From positions 1-21,856 of the IMG/VR virus record IMGVR_UViG_3300009285_002181: a stretch of DNA of 21,856 nucleotides; one strand, 5' to 3'. Below, in pieces: positions 5,578 to 21,732 of this stretch. This stretch comes from a virus. The position numbers were made by a program, and so were the translations under genes. The first letter of the stretch is position 1, and each line of letters starts with the position of its first letter. The notes under the pieces are model-generated. The model saw only the letters and a program-made list of their open reading frames with translations, ran no database searches and was not told where the DNA came from.

Positions 5578-5993
5578 ACGTCCCCCCGGTACTCCCACAT
5601 ATCGCGGCCCTTCGTGTTGTTCTGGCTCGGAATAAACCCCATATGCCGCAAGAACCGTTGGGCGCACTCGTCCGGGTCGGCCAACGCGCAGACCCGGTTG
5701 TATCTCCCCATCAGAAGCCCAAGCCCGCGCCGGCAAGCCTTGACCAGGGTCTTCGAGTGCCGGGCGACGGCCGTGGACGGCAAAATCAGAACCTCCACCG
5801 CGTCGTCCGCAATCGGGATAGCGGCAAGAACGCAGACCGGGGGGCCGTCGGGGGTTGGGAGGACCGTCACGCACAACCCCTTCGCGGCCAATTGCATGAG
5901 GATGCGGAGTCCATCCTTCTTGTCCACGACGGACTGAACCGCAGAGGGCATCCGCATCTGTGCCAAGTGCTCCGGCAGAAAATCGACGGTCAT
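5565..5993 (-). CDS. gp13-like internal virion protein with GNAT-like fold
   Basis: A 142-residue protein. The ATG at 5993 overlaps the upstream stop by four bases (ATGA), which argues against the longer frame reaching 6095. The sequence has the outline of a small acyltransferase (GNAT) domain: alternating hydrophobic strands (CVTVLPTP, VCVLAAIPI, AVEVLILPS), then a helix, then VCALADPDECAQRFLRHMGF at about residues 105-124. The segment RFLRHMGF matches the RFL-x-x-x-GF/GA ending typical of GNAT domains and of T7 gp13 (RFLKTIGA). In T7, gp13 is needed for correct virion core assembly and enzymatic activity is not established. Position between gp12-like and gp14-like genes fits. Catalysis here is unproven; only the fold resemblance is suggested. 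Confidence 0.8.
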   Translation of the reverse strand: MTVDFLPEHLAQMRMPSAVQSVVDKKDGLRILMQLAAKGLCVTVLPTPDGPPVCVLAAIPIADDAVEVLILPSTAVARHSKTLVKACRRGLGLLMGRYNRVCALADPDECAQRFLRHMGFIPSQNNTKGRDMWEYRGDVCGG

Positions 5994-9848: not shown

Positions 9849-9869
9849 GTGCTCTTCTCCTTTCGGCCC

Positions 9870-9905
9870 CCATCGCCCTCCCCTCAGTCGAGGAGAGGGC
9901 GATGG
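9870..9905 (-). terminator. Strong hairpin between decoration-like gene and gp11-like gene
   Basis: A 16-position stem (9870-9885 with 9890-9905) with one mismatch and a 4-nt loop lies in the 69-nt gap after the 163-residue gene. It is very GC-rich and has no clear T-run on the minus strand. It could act as a weak terminator, or as an RNA-processing or 3'-end stabilising structure for the capsid/decoration message. Confidence 0.5.
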
Positions 9906-9917
9906 CCGGCAGACGCC

Positions 9918-10409
9918 TTAGCCGATGACGTACTCGACGACGTAGGAGATGGTCCCCGCGACGCTGCCGATGGTGTTGGCCGTGAGCGCCAGGACGTACC
10001 CCTCTTCCTTGTTGGTGATAGTCTTGCCGAGGAGTTCCCACACCTTGTCGCCCACGTCAGCGATCGGCACCGAAGTCATGCCGTTGTTGGACGCCGCCGT
10101 GATCGCCACTCCCGAGGACAGGTCCAGGCCGTCCGCCAGGATATCGACATCCGCGGCGACCCCGCCGTCGGTGTAGAACCCGAGGTCGTAGTCGGTCCCG
10201 TCGGTGATGGCATCCGCGTAGATCTCGGCCCGGCAGATGACCGCGTTGGAAGGCAGTCTCGCCAGCTTGAAGATGCTGGTGTCGCTGTCCGCGGCCGCGA
10301 CCTCGAACGTGCCGGCGATGGCGCACACCTTACCGCCGGCGACCTGGGAGGTCTGACCGTATCGGCCAGCCTCCACGTCGCTGTTCACCCACTTGTTCTC
10401 TACGGCCAT
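9918..10409 (-). CDS. Probable capsid decoration or accessory virion protein
   Basis: A 163-residue protein with AGGAG 7 nt before the ATG. It is Gly/Ala/Thr/Asp-rich and predicted mostly beta, with no membrane segment. The N-terminus is short and polar (MAVENKWVNSDVEAGRYGQ) and the C-terminus ends in hydrophobic strands (GTISYVVEYVIG). It lies immediately downstream of the major capsid gene, within the same hairpin-bounded, promoter-led unit. That would give high expression and suggests a stoichiometric virion component. Small beta-rich proteins directly after the coat gene are often decoration or head-fibre proteins. I recognise no named family, so the role is inferred from composition and position. 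Confidence 0.8.
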   Translation of the reverse strand: MAVENKWVNSDVEAGRYGQTSQVAGGKVCAIAGTFEVAAADSDTSIFKLARLPSNAVICRAEIYADAITDGTDYDLGFYTDGGVAADVDILADGLDLSSGVAITAASNNGMTSVPIADVGDKVWELLGKTITNKEEGYVLALTANTIGSVAGTISYVVEYVIG

Positions 10410-10455
10410 ATCGTTTCTCCTTTACGACTGTGGTACGGCTACGGCGAAAGACCTT

Positions 10456-10503
10456 CTGCCCTCCTGCCTCGCTCTATTACGAAAGAGAGAAGCAGGAGGG
10501 CAG
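10456..10503 (-). terminator. Perfect 12-bp hairpin between capsid and decoration-like genes
   Basis: CTGCCCTCCTGC at 10456-10467 pairs with GCAGGAGGGCAG at 10492-10503. The 24-nt loop can pair further (CTCT with AGAG). It lies 12 nt past the capsid stop codon. No T-run follows, so it may be a partial terminator or a processing/stability hairpin rather than a full intrinsic terminator. Confidence 0.5.
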
Positions 10504-10514
10504 ATTGTGGGTGC

Positions 10515-11405: not shown

Positions 11406-11583
11406 GATACTGCCTCCAAAACGCGATTTTTTACGTCGACGTCAACTTCGTCGCGGGACGCAGTATCCGGCTCAACGCCTCTCCGGGTGCTACCCTTCTC
11501 CTACTCCAACCGAGGAGCAATCGAGGTCGGAACTCTTACCGACCATTAACGGGGGAGTTGCCTCCGTATCCGTCTTCCCAACA
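11406..11583 (-). promoter_or_regulatory. Long structured 5' leader of the capsid message
   Basis: About 170 nt separate the predicted transcription start from the capsid ATG, unusual in this tightly packed operon. It holds a GGTCGG/CCGACC hairpin (11525-11530 with 11539-11544). Near the gene, CGCGA at 11422-11426 faces TCGCG at 11451-11455 around a 10-bp palindrome ACGTCGACGT (11433-11442), just upstream of the ribosome binding site. No ORF of note is seen. Confidence 0.5.
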
Positions 11584-19261: not shown

Positions 19262-19290
19262 TTGACAGAATCACGATTACATGGTATAAT
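19262..19290 (+). promoter_or_regulatory. Perfect-consensus sigma70 promoter, rightward
   Basis: TTGACA (19262-19267) and TATAAT (19285-19290) are separated by 17 nt, the full consensus. The predicted start is at about 19297. It would drive the rightward block of small genes and, being maximal in strength, is likely controlled by the adjacent CCATAC sites. Confidence 0.9.
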
Positions 19291-19295
19291 CAGGA

Positions 19296-19362
19296 TGCGA
19301 TGGAGAAACAATCTGGCCGCCCCCCGACGGGAGAAACACTCCATCGCACGTCGGGGGGCGGC
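19296..19362 (+). promoter_or_regulatory. Interlocked inverted repeats at the 5' end of the rightward transcript
   Basis: Arm A (19296-19305, TGCGATGGAG) is perfectly complementary to A' (19339-19348). Arm B (19316-19329, GCCGCCCCCCGACG) is perfectly complementary to B' (19349-19362). The order is A-B-A'-B', with 10 nt between A and B, 9 nt between B and A', and none between A' and B'. This is a pseudoknot topology or two mutually exclusive hairpins. The predicted transcription start falls within one or two bases of arm A. Confidence 0.8.
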
Positions 19363-19403
19363 TTGATCTTTGCGGTCAAAAGACGAAAATAGGGGGTAGA
19401 AAA

Positions 19404-20097: not shown

Positions 20098-20420
20098 AAA
20101 CTGAGACGACGAGAAAAACTCTCGGGACAAAACTACTTGAGTTATCCATACTGGATGATGTGAGGTTGACTGAGGAATACTGGGGAACCCGACTGATTCA
20201 CCGATCCGGAAAATACTGGTTGCAGGATTGGGTCAGTGGATTCGGGGGGATGCACCCGATCACCCCCCGTCGGGTGCTGGTCCGGGAGATGTCGATTCTG
20301 ACTACCTCATCGGAGATCGAGGAATACCTGAAACCCCAATCTGATCTTTCCGACGGTGATCCACTGGGTTACACTCCCAGGGATGTCCGACGGGTCCACC
20401 TTTCGGTCGCTGCCGGCTGA
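20094..20420 (+). CDS. Small protein of unknown function
   Basis: A 108-residue protein with GGAG 7-8 nt before an ATG that overlaps the mini-ORF stop. Residues 1-60 look globular (TKLLELSILDDVRLTEEYWG, LIHRSGKYWLQDWVSGFGG); the second half is helical and then polar. I recognise no family. It belongs to the rightward block of accessory-type genes. Confidence 0.75.
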   Translation: MKTETTRKTLGTKLLELSILDDVRLTEEYWGTRLIHRSGKYWLQDWVSGFGGMHPITPRRVLVREMSILTTSSEIEEYLKPQSDLSDGDPLGYTPRDVRRVHLSVAAG

Positions 20421-20568
20421 TCCGGGTTTCGGCCATAGGGTCCGGGTGCGAGCCCGGGCCCCTTGGCGGGAATCTAGGATCAAGACGAATCGGTGCAGGC
20501 GTTGGCTCAGGCGTTGTACGGGTCCGATAATGCGTTGACGGGTGAAAGACTTTAGGCAGGAGGGTGAA
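20421..20568 (+). other. Spacer with GC-rich hairpin and a possible gene remnant
   Basis: A 9-bp hairpin (20438-20446 less one G-U position, with 20453-20461; loop 20447-20452) follows the previous gene. No T-run follows. A short open stretch from a GTG at 20493 to TAG at 20555 encodes VQALAQALYGSDNALTGERL. It reads like part of a known type of phage protein but lacks a ribosome binding site, so it may be a decayed fragment. Confidence 0.45.
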
Positions 20569-20634
20569 ATGAAAACGATCCAAGTTAAAATCTACAAATT
20601 CGCAGAGGCGTTGTCTGGCATCGACGTAGGCTAG
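20569..20634 (+). CDS. 21-codon leader-type mini-ORF, possible truncated gene
   Basis: MKTIQVKIYKFAEALSGIDV plus a terminal Gly is preceded by AGGAGGGT at ideal distance. The start resembles larger phage proteins that open with K-x-I-x-V-x-(I/L)-YKF-x-EL, but here the frame stops after 21 codons. The TAG stop directly abuts the base of the following hairpin element. That placement suggests its translation controls the next gene. A leader peptide, a truncated gene, or both is possible. Confidence 0.55.
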   Translation: MKTIQVKIYKFAEALSGIDVG

Positions 20635-20682
20635 TACCCTGCTACCTTCCAACGTTCGCAGACGTTGGAAGCATGGAGGGTA
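20635..20682 (+). promoter_or_regulatory. Hairpin element copy 1, ribosome-site sequestering
   Basis: The outer stem TACCCT (20635-20640) pairs with AGGGTA (20677-20682). A symmetric 5x5 internal loop (GCTAC and CATGG) follows, then a perfect 10-bp inner stem (20646-20655 with 20662-20671) and a TCGCAG loop. The 3' side of the outer stem contains most of the GGAGGG ribosome binding site of the next gene. An upstream TAG stop abuts the first base. Confidence 0.75.
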
Positions 20683-20687
20683 TACAA

Positions 20688-20930
20688 ATGAACGTGAAAA
20701 AGATGAAACCGTGGGCCTATCAGCATTTGCGGGCACCCAATTCCCCGATGGGGAACCCGCAACGGCTGTATGTCGTTTACGCGCGTGATGGGCGCGTGTT
20801 AGAAGTGATTGATGAAGGATACCGGGGGCTGCCGGCGACGTTGCGGCATGGGTCCAGCGTCGTGGAACTGTCCAGCATCGAAATCCCCCGGGGCGAGTAT
20901 CACGCCTGGCGACGCGGGTATACGGGCTAG
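20688..20930 (+). CDS. Small protein of unknown function
   Basis: An 80-residue protein. I chose the ATG at 20688, 7-8 nt after GGAGGG. An in-frame ATG at 20673 would start inside the hairpin element and lacks its own site. The sequence is basic, with a beta-like centre (RLYVVYARDGRVLEVIDEGY) and VVELSSIEIPRGEYHAWRRG at the end. The family is not recognised. Both sides of the gene are marked by the same hairpin element, so it appears to sit in a repeated regulatory unit. Confidence 0.75.
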   Translation: MNVKKMKPWAYQHLRAPNSPMGNPQRLYVVYARDGRVLEVIDEGYRGLPATLRHGSSVVELSSIEIPRGEYHAWRRGYTG

Positions 20931-20990
20931 TACCTTACTACCTTCCCCCCACACAGTATCGCAAGCTGTGGGGGGGAAGCATGGAGGGTA
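20931..20990 (+). promoter_or_regulatory. Hairpin element copy 2, ribosome-site sequestering
   Basis: The architecture is the same as copy 1. Outer stem TACCTT (20931-20936) pairs with AGGGTA (20985-20990) using one G-U pair. The internal loop is ACTAC and CATGG. The inner stem (20942-20956 with 20966-20979, one bulged A) has a loop containing TCGCAAG. The inner stem differs greatly in sequence from copy 1 yet stays complementary. The upstream TAG abuts the element and the next gene's ribosome site is in its 3' arm. Confidence 0.75.
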
Positions 20991-20997
20991 TAACCAT

Positions 20998-21210
20998 ATG
21001 AGGATGTATCGATCGACGGCTAATAGTCGGTCCTGGTGGCGGGGGTGTCTGTTACGGGTGGTGGACGACAACGGGCATGAGGTGGGACGCCACGTGGTCC
21101 CTACTATGCACTGCAACGTCATCACGTACTGCCAACGGCACCCGGGAGGACGTCACGCGGCGATAGTGCGCGATATCATCACCAGGGGCGGCGGAGTTGC
21201 GGGGTTTTGA
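20998..21210 (+). CDS. Small Arg/His-rich protein of unknown function
   Basis: A 70-residue protein. The ATG at 20998 lies 8-9 nt after GGAGGGT of hairpin copy 2; frames starting further upstream would overlap the previous gene. The protein is rich in Arg, His, Trp and Cys (SRSWWRGCLLRVVDDNGHEV, TYCQRHPGGRH). It has no membrane segment and no recognised family. A six-codon ORF starting at 20981 inside the hairpin ends at a TGA overlapping this ATG. Confidence 0.65.
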   Translation: MRMYRSTANSRSWWRGCLLRVVDDNGHEVGRHVVPTMHCNVITYCQRHPGGRHAAIVRDIITRGGGVAGF

Positions 21211-21347: not shown

Positions 21348-21445
21348 GTAAGAGGTAAATGCGTTCGGCCGAAATCGGTCTGTCCTTTCGGCCGTAAGAG
21401 GTAAATGTGTTTTTCACAAGTCGTGTCGTCGGTAAGAGGTAAATG
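21348..21445 (+). repeat. Three copies of a 14-nt SD-ATG unit with chained mini-ORFs
   Basis: GTAAGAGGTAAATG occurs exactly at 21348-21361, 21394-21407 and 21432-21445 (spacings 46 and 38 nt). AGAGGTAAA recurs at 21731-21739. The ATG of each unit opens a short frame: 21359-21397 (12 codons, stop TAA inside the second unit), 21405-21446 (13 codons, stop overlapping the third unit's ATG) and 21443-21469 (8 codons, stop overlapping the next gene's ATG). Confidence 0.7.
21366..21394 (+). other. Hairpin between first and second SD-ATG units
   Basis: CGGCCGAAA (21366-21374) pairs with TTTCGGCCG (21386-21394), a perfect 9-bp stem with an 11-nt loop. It ends at the first base of the second repeat unit. 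Confidence 0.55.
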
Positions 21446-21465
21446 AAAATCGGAGGAACAGGATC

Positions 21466-21732
21466 ATGAAATTATGGAAGATAAGCCAGAACACGAATAA
21501 CGACTACGACACGTTTGACAGCGCGGTGGTGGCCGCCAAGACTGAGTCGGATGCACGTGCTACGCATCCTTTGGGGGATGGTTCGGCGGTACCAACCGGG
21601 GAGGGGGTTACGGACACGGAAAGCTGTCTGGCCCCATGGACCGGCCAGGGGAATGTCGTGGTCGAGTACGTCGGGACGGCAAAACCGGGGACCGAGGCCG
21701 GGGTCATTGTCGCGTCGTTCAATGCCGGCTAG
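21466..21732 (+). CDS. Conserved-type phage protein of unknown function (MKLWKISQ family)
   Basis: An 88-residue protein with GGAGGA about 8 nt before the ATG. The opening MKLWKISQNTNNDYDTFDSA, the DARATHP segment (about residues 29-35), and the ending VVEYVGTA ... GVIVASFNAG match a small protein type I have seen in many phages (K-x-(Y/W)-KISQ-x-x-N-x-(G/D)-YDT-x-DSA, ending ASFNAG). Its function is unknown. The ATG overlaps the stop of an 8-codon frame starting in the third SD-ATG unit, so initiation may be coupled. Confidence 0.88.
   Translation: MKLWKISQNTNNDYDTFDSAVVAAKTESDARATHPLGDGSAVPTGEGVTDTESCLAPWTGQGNVVVEYVGTAKPGTEAGVIVASFNAG

Follow-up and report, generated by a model that had tools for sequence, protein, structure and literature searches.

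Two copies of a hairpin linker predicted to enclose the Shine-Dalgarno sequences of small genes in a podovirus fragment

Why do two successive junctions between unrelated small phage genes carry the same stretch of DNA, in which a stop codon, a hairpin and a Shine-Dalgarno (SD) sequence follow one another? The whole stretch analysed, hereafter the window, is a virus fragment of 21,856 bases. Its minus strand encodes podovirus structural genes, namely terminase, a head-tail connector (PF12236), a capsid protein (PF19821) and tail proteins, and its plus strand carries small genes, probably early ones, downstream of a consensus promoter-like site, TTGACA-17-TATAAT (19262-19290, plus strand, 12/12 matches). 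The linkers thus sit among the small genes of a podovirus whose structural set is T7-like. The leader following the promoter-like site (19292-19367) can fold into a highly stable hairpin (GCCGCCCCCCGACG/CGTCGGGGGGCGGC) or into a competing pairing of TGCGATGGAG (19296-19305) with CTCCATCGCA (19339-19348); the two cross each other and would form a pseudoknot or be mutually exclusive. No tRNA was found in the window.

The genes joined by the linkers, all on the plus strand, are a 21-codon ORF, MKTIQVKIYKFAEALSGIDVG (20569-20634), with its own SD GGAGGG and its end at the stop of copy 1, an 80-aa ORF (20688-20930) between the two copies and a 70-aa ORF (20998-21210) 3' of copy 2. The first has no PHROG match and no homologue, the second and third match no family and are unlike each other, and searches for protein relatives of the 80-aa ORF, and in phages of the 70-aa ORF, found none. 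Further downstream, an 88-aa ORF (21466-21732) matches phrog_5444 and has 42-48% identical proteins in N4-like Escherichia phages; in vB_EcoP-ZQ2 the counterpart gene overlaps the end of the gene for RNAP1 subunit B. Ahead of it, the linker GTAAGAGGTAAATG occurs three times (21349-21466), creating a chain of micro-ORFs of 8-13 codons, and a fourth variant, TAGAGGTAAAG, lies at 21731.

Alignment delimits the repeated unit as a pair of direct repeats on the plus strand, 20629-20684 (copy 1) and 20925-20992 (copy 2), each composed of a glycine codon, a stop codon, a hairpin and an SD; it starts with GGCTAG, the last codon and the stop of the upstream gene, and ends with GGGTATA. The consensus reads GGCTAG TACCYT RCTAC CTTCC (core) GGAAG CATGG AGGGTA TA. 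The arms of the two copies are identical at 20/22 and 18/18 positions (38/40 in total), and the cores, of 16 and 28 nt, are unrelated in sequence and each self-complementary. In copy 1 the TAG (20632-20634) is followed by a hairpin at 20635-20682 (-28.5 kcal/mol, z -7.2) with the outer stem TACCCT (20635-20640)/AGGGTA (20677-20682), a 5x5 internal loop GCTAC (20641-20645)/CATGG (20672-20676) and an inner stem CTTCCAACGT/ACGTTGGAAG (20646-20655/20662-20671) closed by the loop TCGCAG (20656-20661). In copy 2 the TAG (20928-20930) is followed by a hairpin at 20931-20990 (-36.3 kcal/mol, z -5.4) with the outer stem TACCTT (20931-20936)/AGGGTA (20985-20990), the internal loop ACTAC (20937-20941)/CATGG (20980-20984) and a longer inner stem, CTTCCCCCC-A-CACAG/CTGTGGGGGGGAAG, which includes the unrelated core (20947-20974) and has a loop with TCGCAAG. 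ViennaRNA places 1-3 extra pairs within the internal loop, and the sole difference between the outer stems, C to T, retains a G-U pair. The original prediction had the coordinates and architecture of both copies right, including the outer stem that starts directly after the TAG and the inner-stem cores that are unrelated yet each pair with themselves. The internal loop also holds an ATG. In copy 1 (20673-20690) it shares the frame of the downstream ORF; in copy 2 (20981-21001) it yields MEGITI-stop, a frame that overlaps the likely start.

The repeated hairpin exceeds chance. Both folds lie far below those of dinucleotide shuffles (7.2 and 5.4 standard deviations for the 54- and 65-nt pieces tested), and 0 of 200 shuffles folded as well. 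When the arms were held fixed and only the core was shuffled, equally good folds arose in 20/5000 cases for copy 1 and in 0/5000 for copy 2, and swapping the core halves between the copies raised the energies from -13.9 and -25.8 to -7.8 and -5.4 kcal/mol, with most of the pairing lost. The early region contains eight exact 14-mer repeats (at most one in 50 shuffles) and five hairpins of -27 kcal/mol or below; since shuffles gave 0-6 of the latter, hairpin abundance alone is not significant. Another stop-adjacent hairpin, the most stable in the plus-strand scan, lies at 20419-20481 (plus strand) and starts within the TGA of a 108-aa ORF; its sequence is unrelated to the linkers and it has neither a T-run nor a close ATG. 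The claim of an RNA hairpin element reused in tandem is supported by the repeat and the folds, both obtained by computation.

Alignment and comparison of the ORFs revealed no similarity between the copies outside the arms or in the coding regions, and duplication of the flanked genes was rejected, the 80-aa and 70-aa sequences not being similar. As the flanking ORFs are unrelated and the arms nearly identical, selection or copying acts on the linker itself, which was copied on its own, or is kept, independently of the genes that it joins and carrying the stop codon along. The linkers do not read as intrinsic terminators: the stems continue as TACAAATG and TAACCATATG with no T-run, and the units were not listed by the promoter/terminator scan. 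They resemble PeSLs, the promoter/stem-loop cassettes between genes of T4-type phages that are proposed to promote gene shuffling (cited in PMC4503421), in being stem-loops at gene junctions; PeSLs are composite promoter-terminator motifs, whereas the linkers have no promoter-like site and no T-run.

We then asked whether the linker occurs elsewhere. No further copy was found by four pattern scans of IMG/VR (in one scan, among the matches listed) or by one pattern scan of the GTDB species genomes, and annotated phage records gave no blastn match to the early region. A covariance model built from the two copies, as the original prediction had proposed, returned nothing believable from 47 sources; its hits scored 16-26 bits and were mostly loci fetched by a similar pattern. 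Among the pattern matches, L001 lies inside a coding frame and has no element, L128-L132 miss the full stem and L167-L174 are sequences or hairpins without GGAAGCATGG. By protein, the portal has no relative in IMG/VR, the terminase has relatives on four contigs, all without the early region, and the 31 loci with relatives of the 88-aa ORF include none with the element. In the related podovirus MW202485 (L164, 5368-6063), a 24-base tandem-repeat array lies inside a hypothetical gene. Because no further copy was found, the covariation rests on one pair of paralogues: the complementarity is real, and it is one comparison rather than a phylogeny. The lack of further copies and of covariation beyond these two, named in advance as evidence against the element, weakens the finding and does not refute it, as the collections yielded no close relative that has the early region. 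The proposal of a switch or a ligand-binding RNA is left unsupported, with no third copy or orthologue and no Rfam match in the window at the gathering score.

The SD sequences are masked by the hairpins, as computed from both folds. The GGAGGG of the 80-aa ORF (20675-20680, plus strand) and that of the 70-aa ORF (20983-20988, plus strand), 7 and 9 nt from their ATGs, were said to lie in the 3' strand of the outer stem; this holds for AGGG in both copies, and the first two G fall in the internal loop. Opening the SD costs 11.8 (copy 1) and 7.4 kcal/mol (copy 2) in the isolated unit, in agreement with the notion of a hairpin hiding the ribosome site, and 9.0 and 7.5 kcal/mol in a longer context. 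Among 23 starts in the window, the linker SDs are the second and third most closed, exceeded only by that of the capsid gene. Both downstream SDs are therefore predicted to be closed by secondary structure, as in known coupled gene pairs.

Hairpins also occur at other gene boundaries of this lineage. In the window and three genomes related by terminase at about 50% identity (L006-L008), two junctions, capsid/163-aa and 163-aa/tail, have strong hairpins of unrelated sequence after the stop codon (4/4 genomes); those of the window lie directly 3' of the capsid and 163-aa stops, at 10452-10511 and 9862-9921 on the minus strand. Immediately ahead of the capsid start, a hairpin takes up the capsid SD, both in the window (11406-11470, minus strand) and in the leaders of L006, L007 and L008. 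Capsid-leader arms pair within a genome at -18 to -24 kcal/mol, L006 arms with those of other genomes at -5 to -12 kcal/mol only, and arms of the three less divergent genomes across genomes at -11 to -22 kcal/mol; since these three pair better with one another, most of the covariation signal comes from L006. With the capsid SD also masked by a covarying hairpin, the lineage appears to use SD-masking hairpins. Although these hairpins are not copies of the linkers, they raise the likelihood of an RNA role for them, and the capsid leader is possibly the better testable SD-masking element of the two.

How could a masked SD be released? According to the original prediction, a ribosome terminating at the upstream stop melts the stem and exposes the site. 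To mimic the ribosome footprint, the stop and 12 nt downstream were blocked in the fold, whereupon the outer stem is predicted to be lost and the inner hairpin to stay. In copy 1 all SD bases but the first G, at 0.11, then become 0.71-1.0 unpaired; the unpaired values for copy 2 are 0.24, 0.96, 0.99, 0.21, 0.12 and 0.84, a weak alternative pairing holding two bases at 0.12-0.21. By this computation the SD would be mostly released in copy 1 and only partly in copy 2, for which the prediction is weaker. Reinitiation would have to bridge long distances from stop to start, 53 and 67 nt, so that coupling would need to act by unfolding. The layout is that of the RNA-unfolding model of coupling, which is documented with comparable spacings of +52 to +62 nt (PMC12548453).

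Our preferred reading, to which we give about an even chance, is that the unit is a linker of an early operon that makes translation of the next gene depend on that of the preceding one through RNA-unfolding coupling. The intercistronic linker would supply the stop codon of the upstream ORF and then the hairpin, the outer stem of which (UACCYU/AGGGUA) would close over the SD of the next ORF, and free 30S subunits would seldom start the downstream ORF. A ribosome terminating at UAG would cover about 12 nt downstream and displace the 5' strand of the outer stem, exposing the SD with the inner hairpin still folded, and translation of the downstream ORF would become dependent on that of the upstream ORF. 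In this form, stop-codon-triggered translation is a reasonable reading, and we infer for it a single transcript through the region, translation of the small ORFs and coupling in the cell. Against it count the two copies in one 21.9-kb fragment, with no orthologue in the collections searched, the two SD bases of copy 2 that stay largely paired when the footprint is blocked and the upstream ORF of copy 1, which has just 21 codons and no homologue. Moreover, coupling neither needs nor by itself explains the conservation of the internal loop and of the UCGCA loop; the kept loop bases could stem from a recent duplication or from a bound protein or nuclease.

The main rival to coupling, possible though rather unlikely in our estimate, is that RNase III processes the mRNA at the hairpins, as it does between the early genes of T7. 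A cut by the host enzyme in or near the internal loop would split the polycistronic mRNA, removal of the 5' strand would free the SD and the upper hairpin would cap the upstream mRNA. A site for a double-stranded RNA nuclease could show such covarying inner stems and conserved internal loops, and a scan for stop, hairpin and SD also picked T7 R0.5, R1.0 and R1.3 (for T7 sites other than R1.1, at what we take to be their positions), which share with the linkers a lower stem, an internal loop, an upper stem of 9-11 bp, a stop at or near the lower stem and an SD soon after. The scan is loose, however, with 64 hits in 326 kb of real and 126 in 580 kb of shuffled DNA, and since these rates are about equal, the likeness to T7 is a resemblance and not a test. 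T7 R0.3 and R1.1 carry the UCGCAAG loop of copy 2, a weak match since GCAA loops are common in RNA. The linkers are, like the early-mRNA sites R0.3-R1.3, intercistronic hairpins near the upstream stop, built of a lower stem, an internal loop and an upper stem; the next SD lies just downstream of the hairpin in T7, whereas it lies within the lower stem in the linkers, the cleavage of which is putative. R1.1 itself, at position 5887 (PMC8708148), separates genes 1.0 and 1.1, and its internal loop measures 4/5 nt (PMC6121014).

It is improbable, in our view, that the unit is a translational operator at which an RNA-binding protein of phage or host, by reading the conserved arms together with the internal loop, keeps the SD of several genes closed simultaneously. 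CsrA recognises an A-N-GGA core, into which the AUGGA of the internal loop, overlapping the SD, would fit, but AUGGA occurs in many SDs. The two copies differ in the core and agree in the arms, the internal loop and the loop bases, a conservation that may only reflect recent copying. Protein operators at initiation regions exist in T4 (PMC3014915). No candidate protein was identified in the window. That the unit acts as DNA, as an inverted-repeat protein site at gene starts (a role proposed for the ESAS of cluster K mycobacteriophages) or a recombination linker for the exchange of small genes, we consider about as improbable: near-identical arms between unrelated genes, and imperfect inverted repeats with a variable spacer by the starts, as in the ESAS of mycobacteriophages (PMC3203893), would suit it, but there are only two copies, the pairing continues through both unrelated cores although binding to half-sites would not call for this, and the C to T change of the outer stem keeps a G-U pair, whereas the ESAS authors report departures that do not support pairing (PMC3203893).

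Returning to coupling, the linkers are a variant of known SD-masking intercistronic hairpins. In the RNA-unfolding pairs MS2 coat/lysis, f1 VII/IX and E. coli rpmI-rplT (PMC12548453), the downstream SD is likewise closed by structure, and the upstream ribosome has to unfold it; the linkers differ in that one unit, stop included, recurs between unrelated genes while its core is exchanged, and in that coupling is here predicted. The leaders of T4 genes e, soc, 49 and I-TevI also close the SD or start codon in an RNA helix, and those of gene e and I-TevI have a late promoter in the 5' strand of the structure, so that late transcripts escape (PMC3014915); unlike in these two, our scan found no promoter-like site inside the linker units. 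Besides the RNase III sites, the other close parallel absent from the original prediction is the start-associated repeats of cluster K mycobacteriophages. SAS and ESAS are short elements repeated at the starts of non-structural genes (PMC3203893; PMC12699233), with the SD inside the conserved sequence and an upstream stop that can fall inside the element. ESAS are the nearest repeated start-site elements, and the linkers have their anatomy upstream of the start, imperfect inverted repeats (17 bp in ESAS, 16 nt in the linker) with a variable spacer, here the 16- and 28-nt cores. The sequences differ, the start-proximal linker arm GGAAGCATGGAGGGTATA not matching GGGATAGGAGCCC, the consensus that ESAS/SAS have beside the start codon, and so do the numbers, with 11-19 SAS per genome against two linker copies. 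The ESAS authors doubted pairing in the mRNA and judged it unsupported (PMC3203893), whereas in the linkers the spacer also pairs and the change in the outer arm keeps pairing; in 2025 the role of ESAS was described as still needing experimental verification (PMC12699233).

It would be a long shot that a self-contained RNA linker with its own stop, hairpin and SD copies itself and spreads between the small early genes of this group of phages, its arms read by a specific protein or nuclease, and so subjects several of these genes to a common post-transcriptional control. The present basis is two copies in one fragment, and these offer a clean test of whether ESAS-like start repeats act as RNA, a question open since 2011. 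If our reading is right, a portable linker of stop, hairpin and SD would let phages extend an operon by new small genes with ready-made control of their translation.
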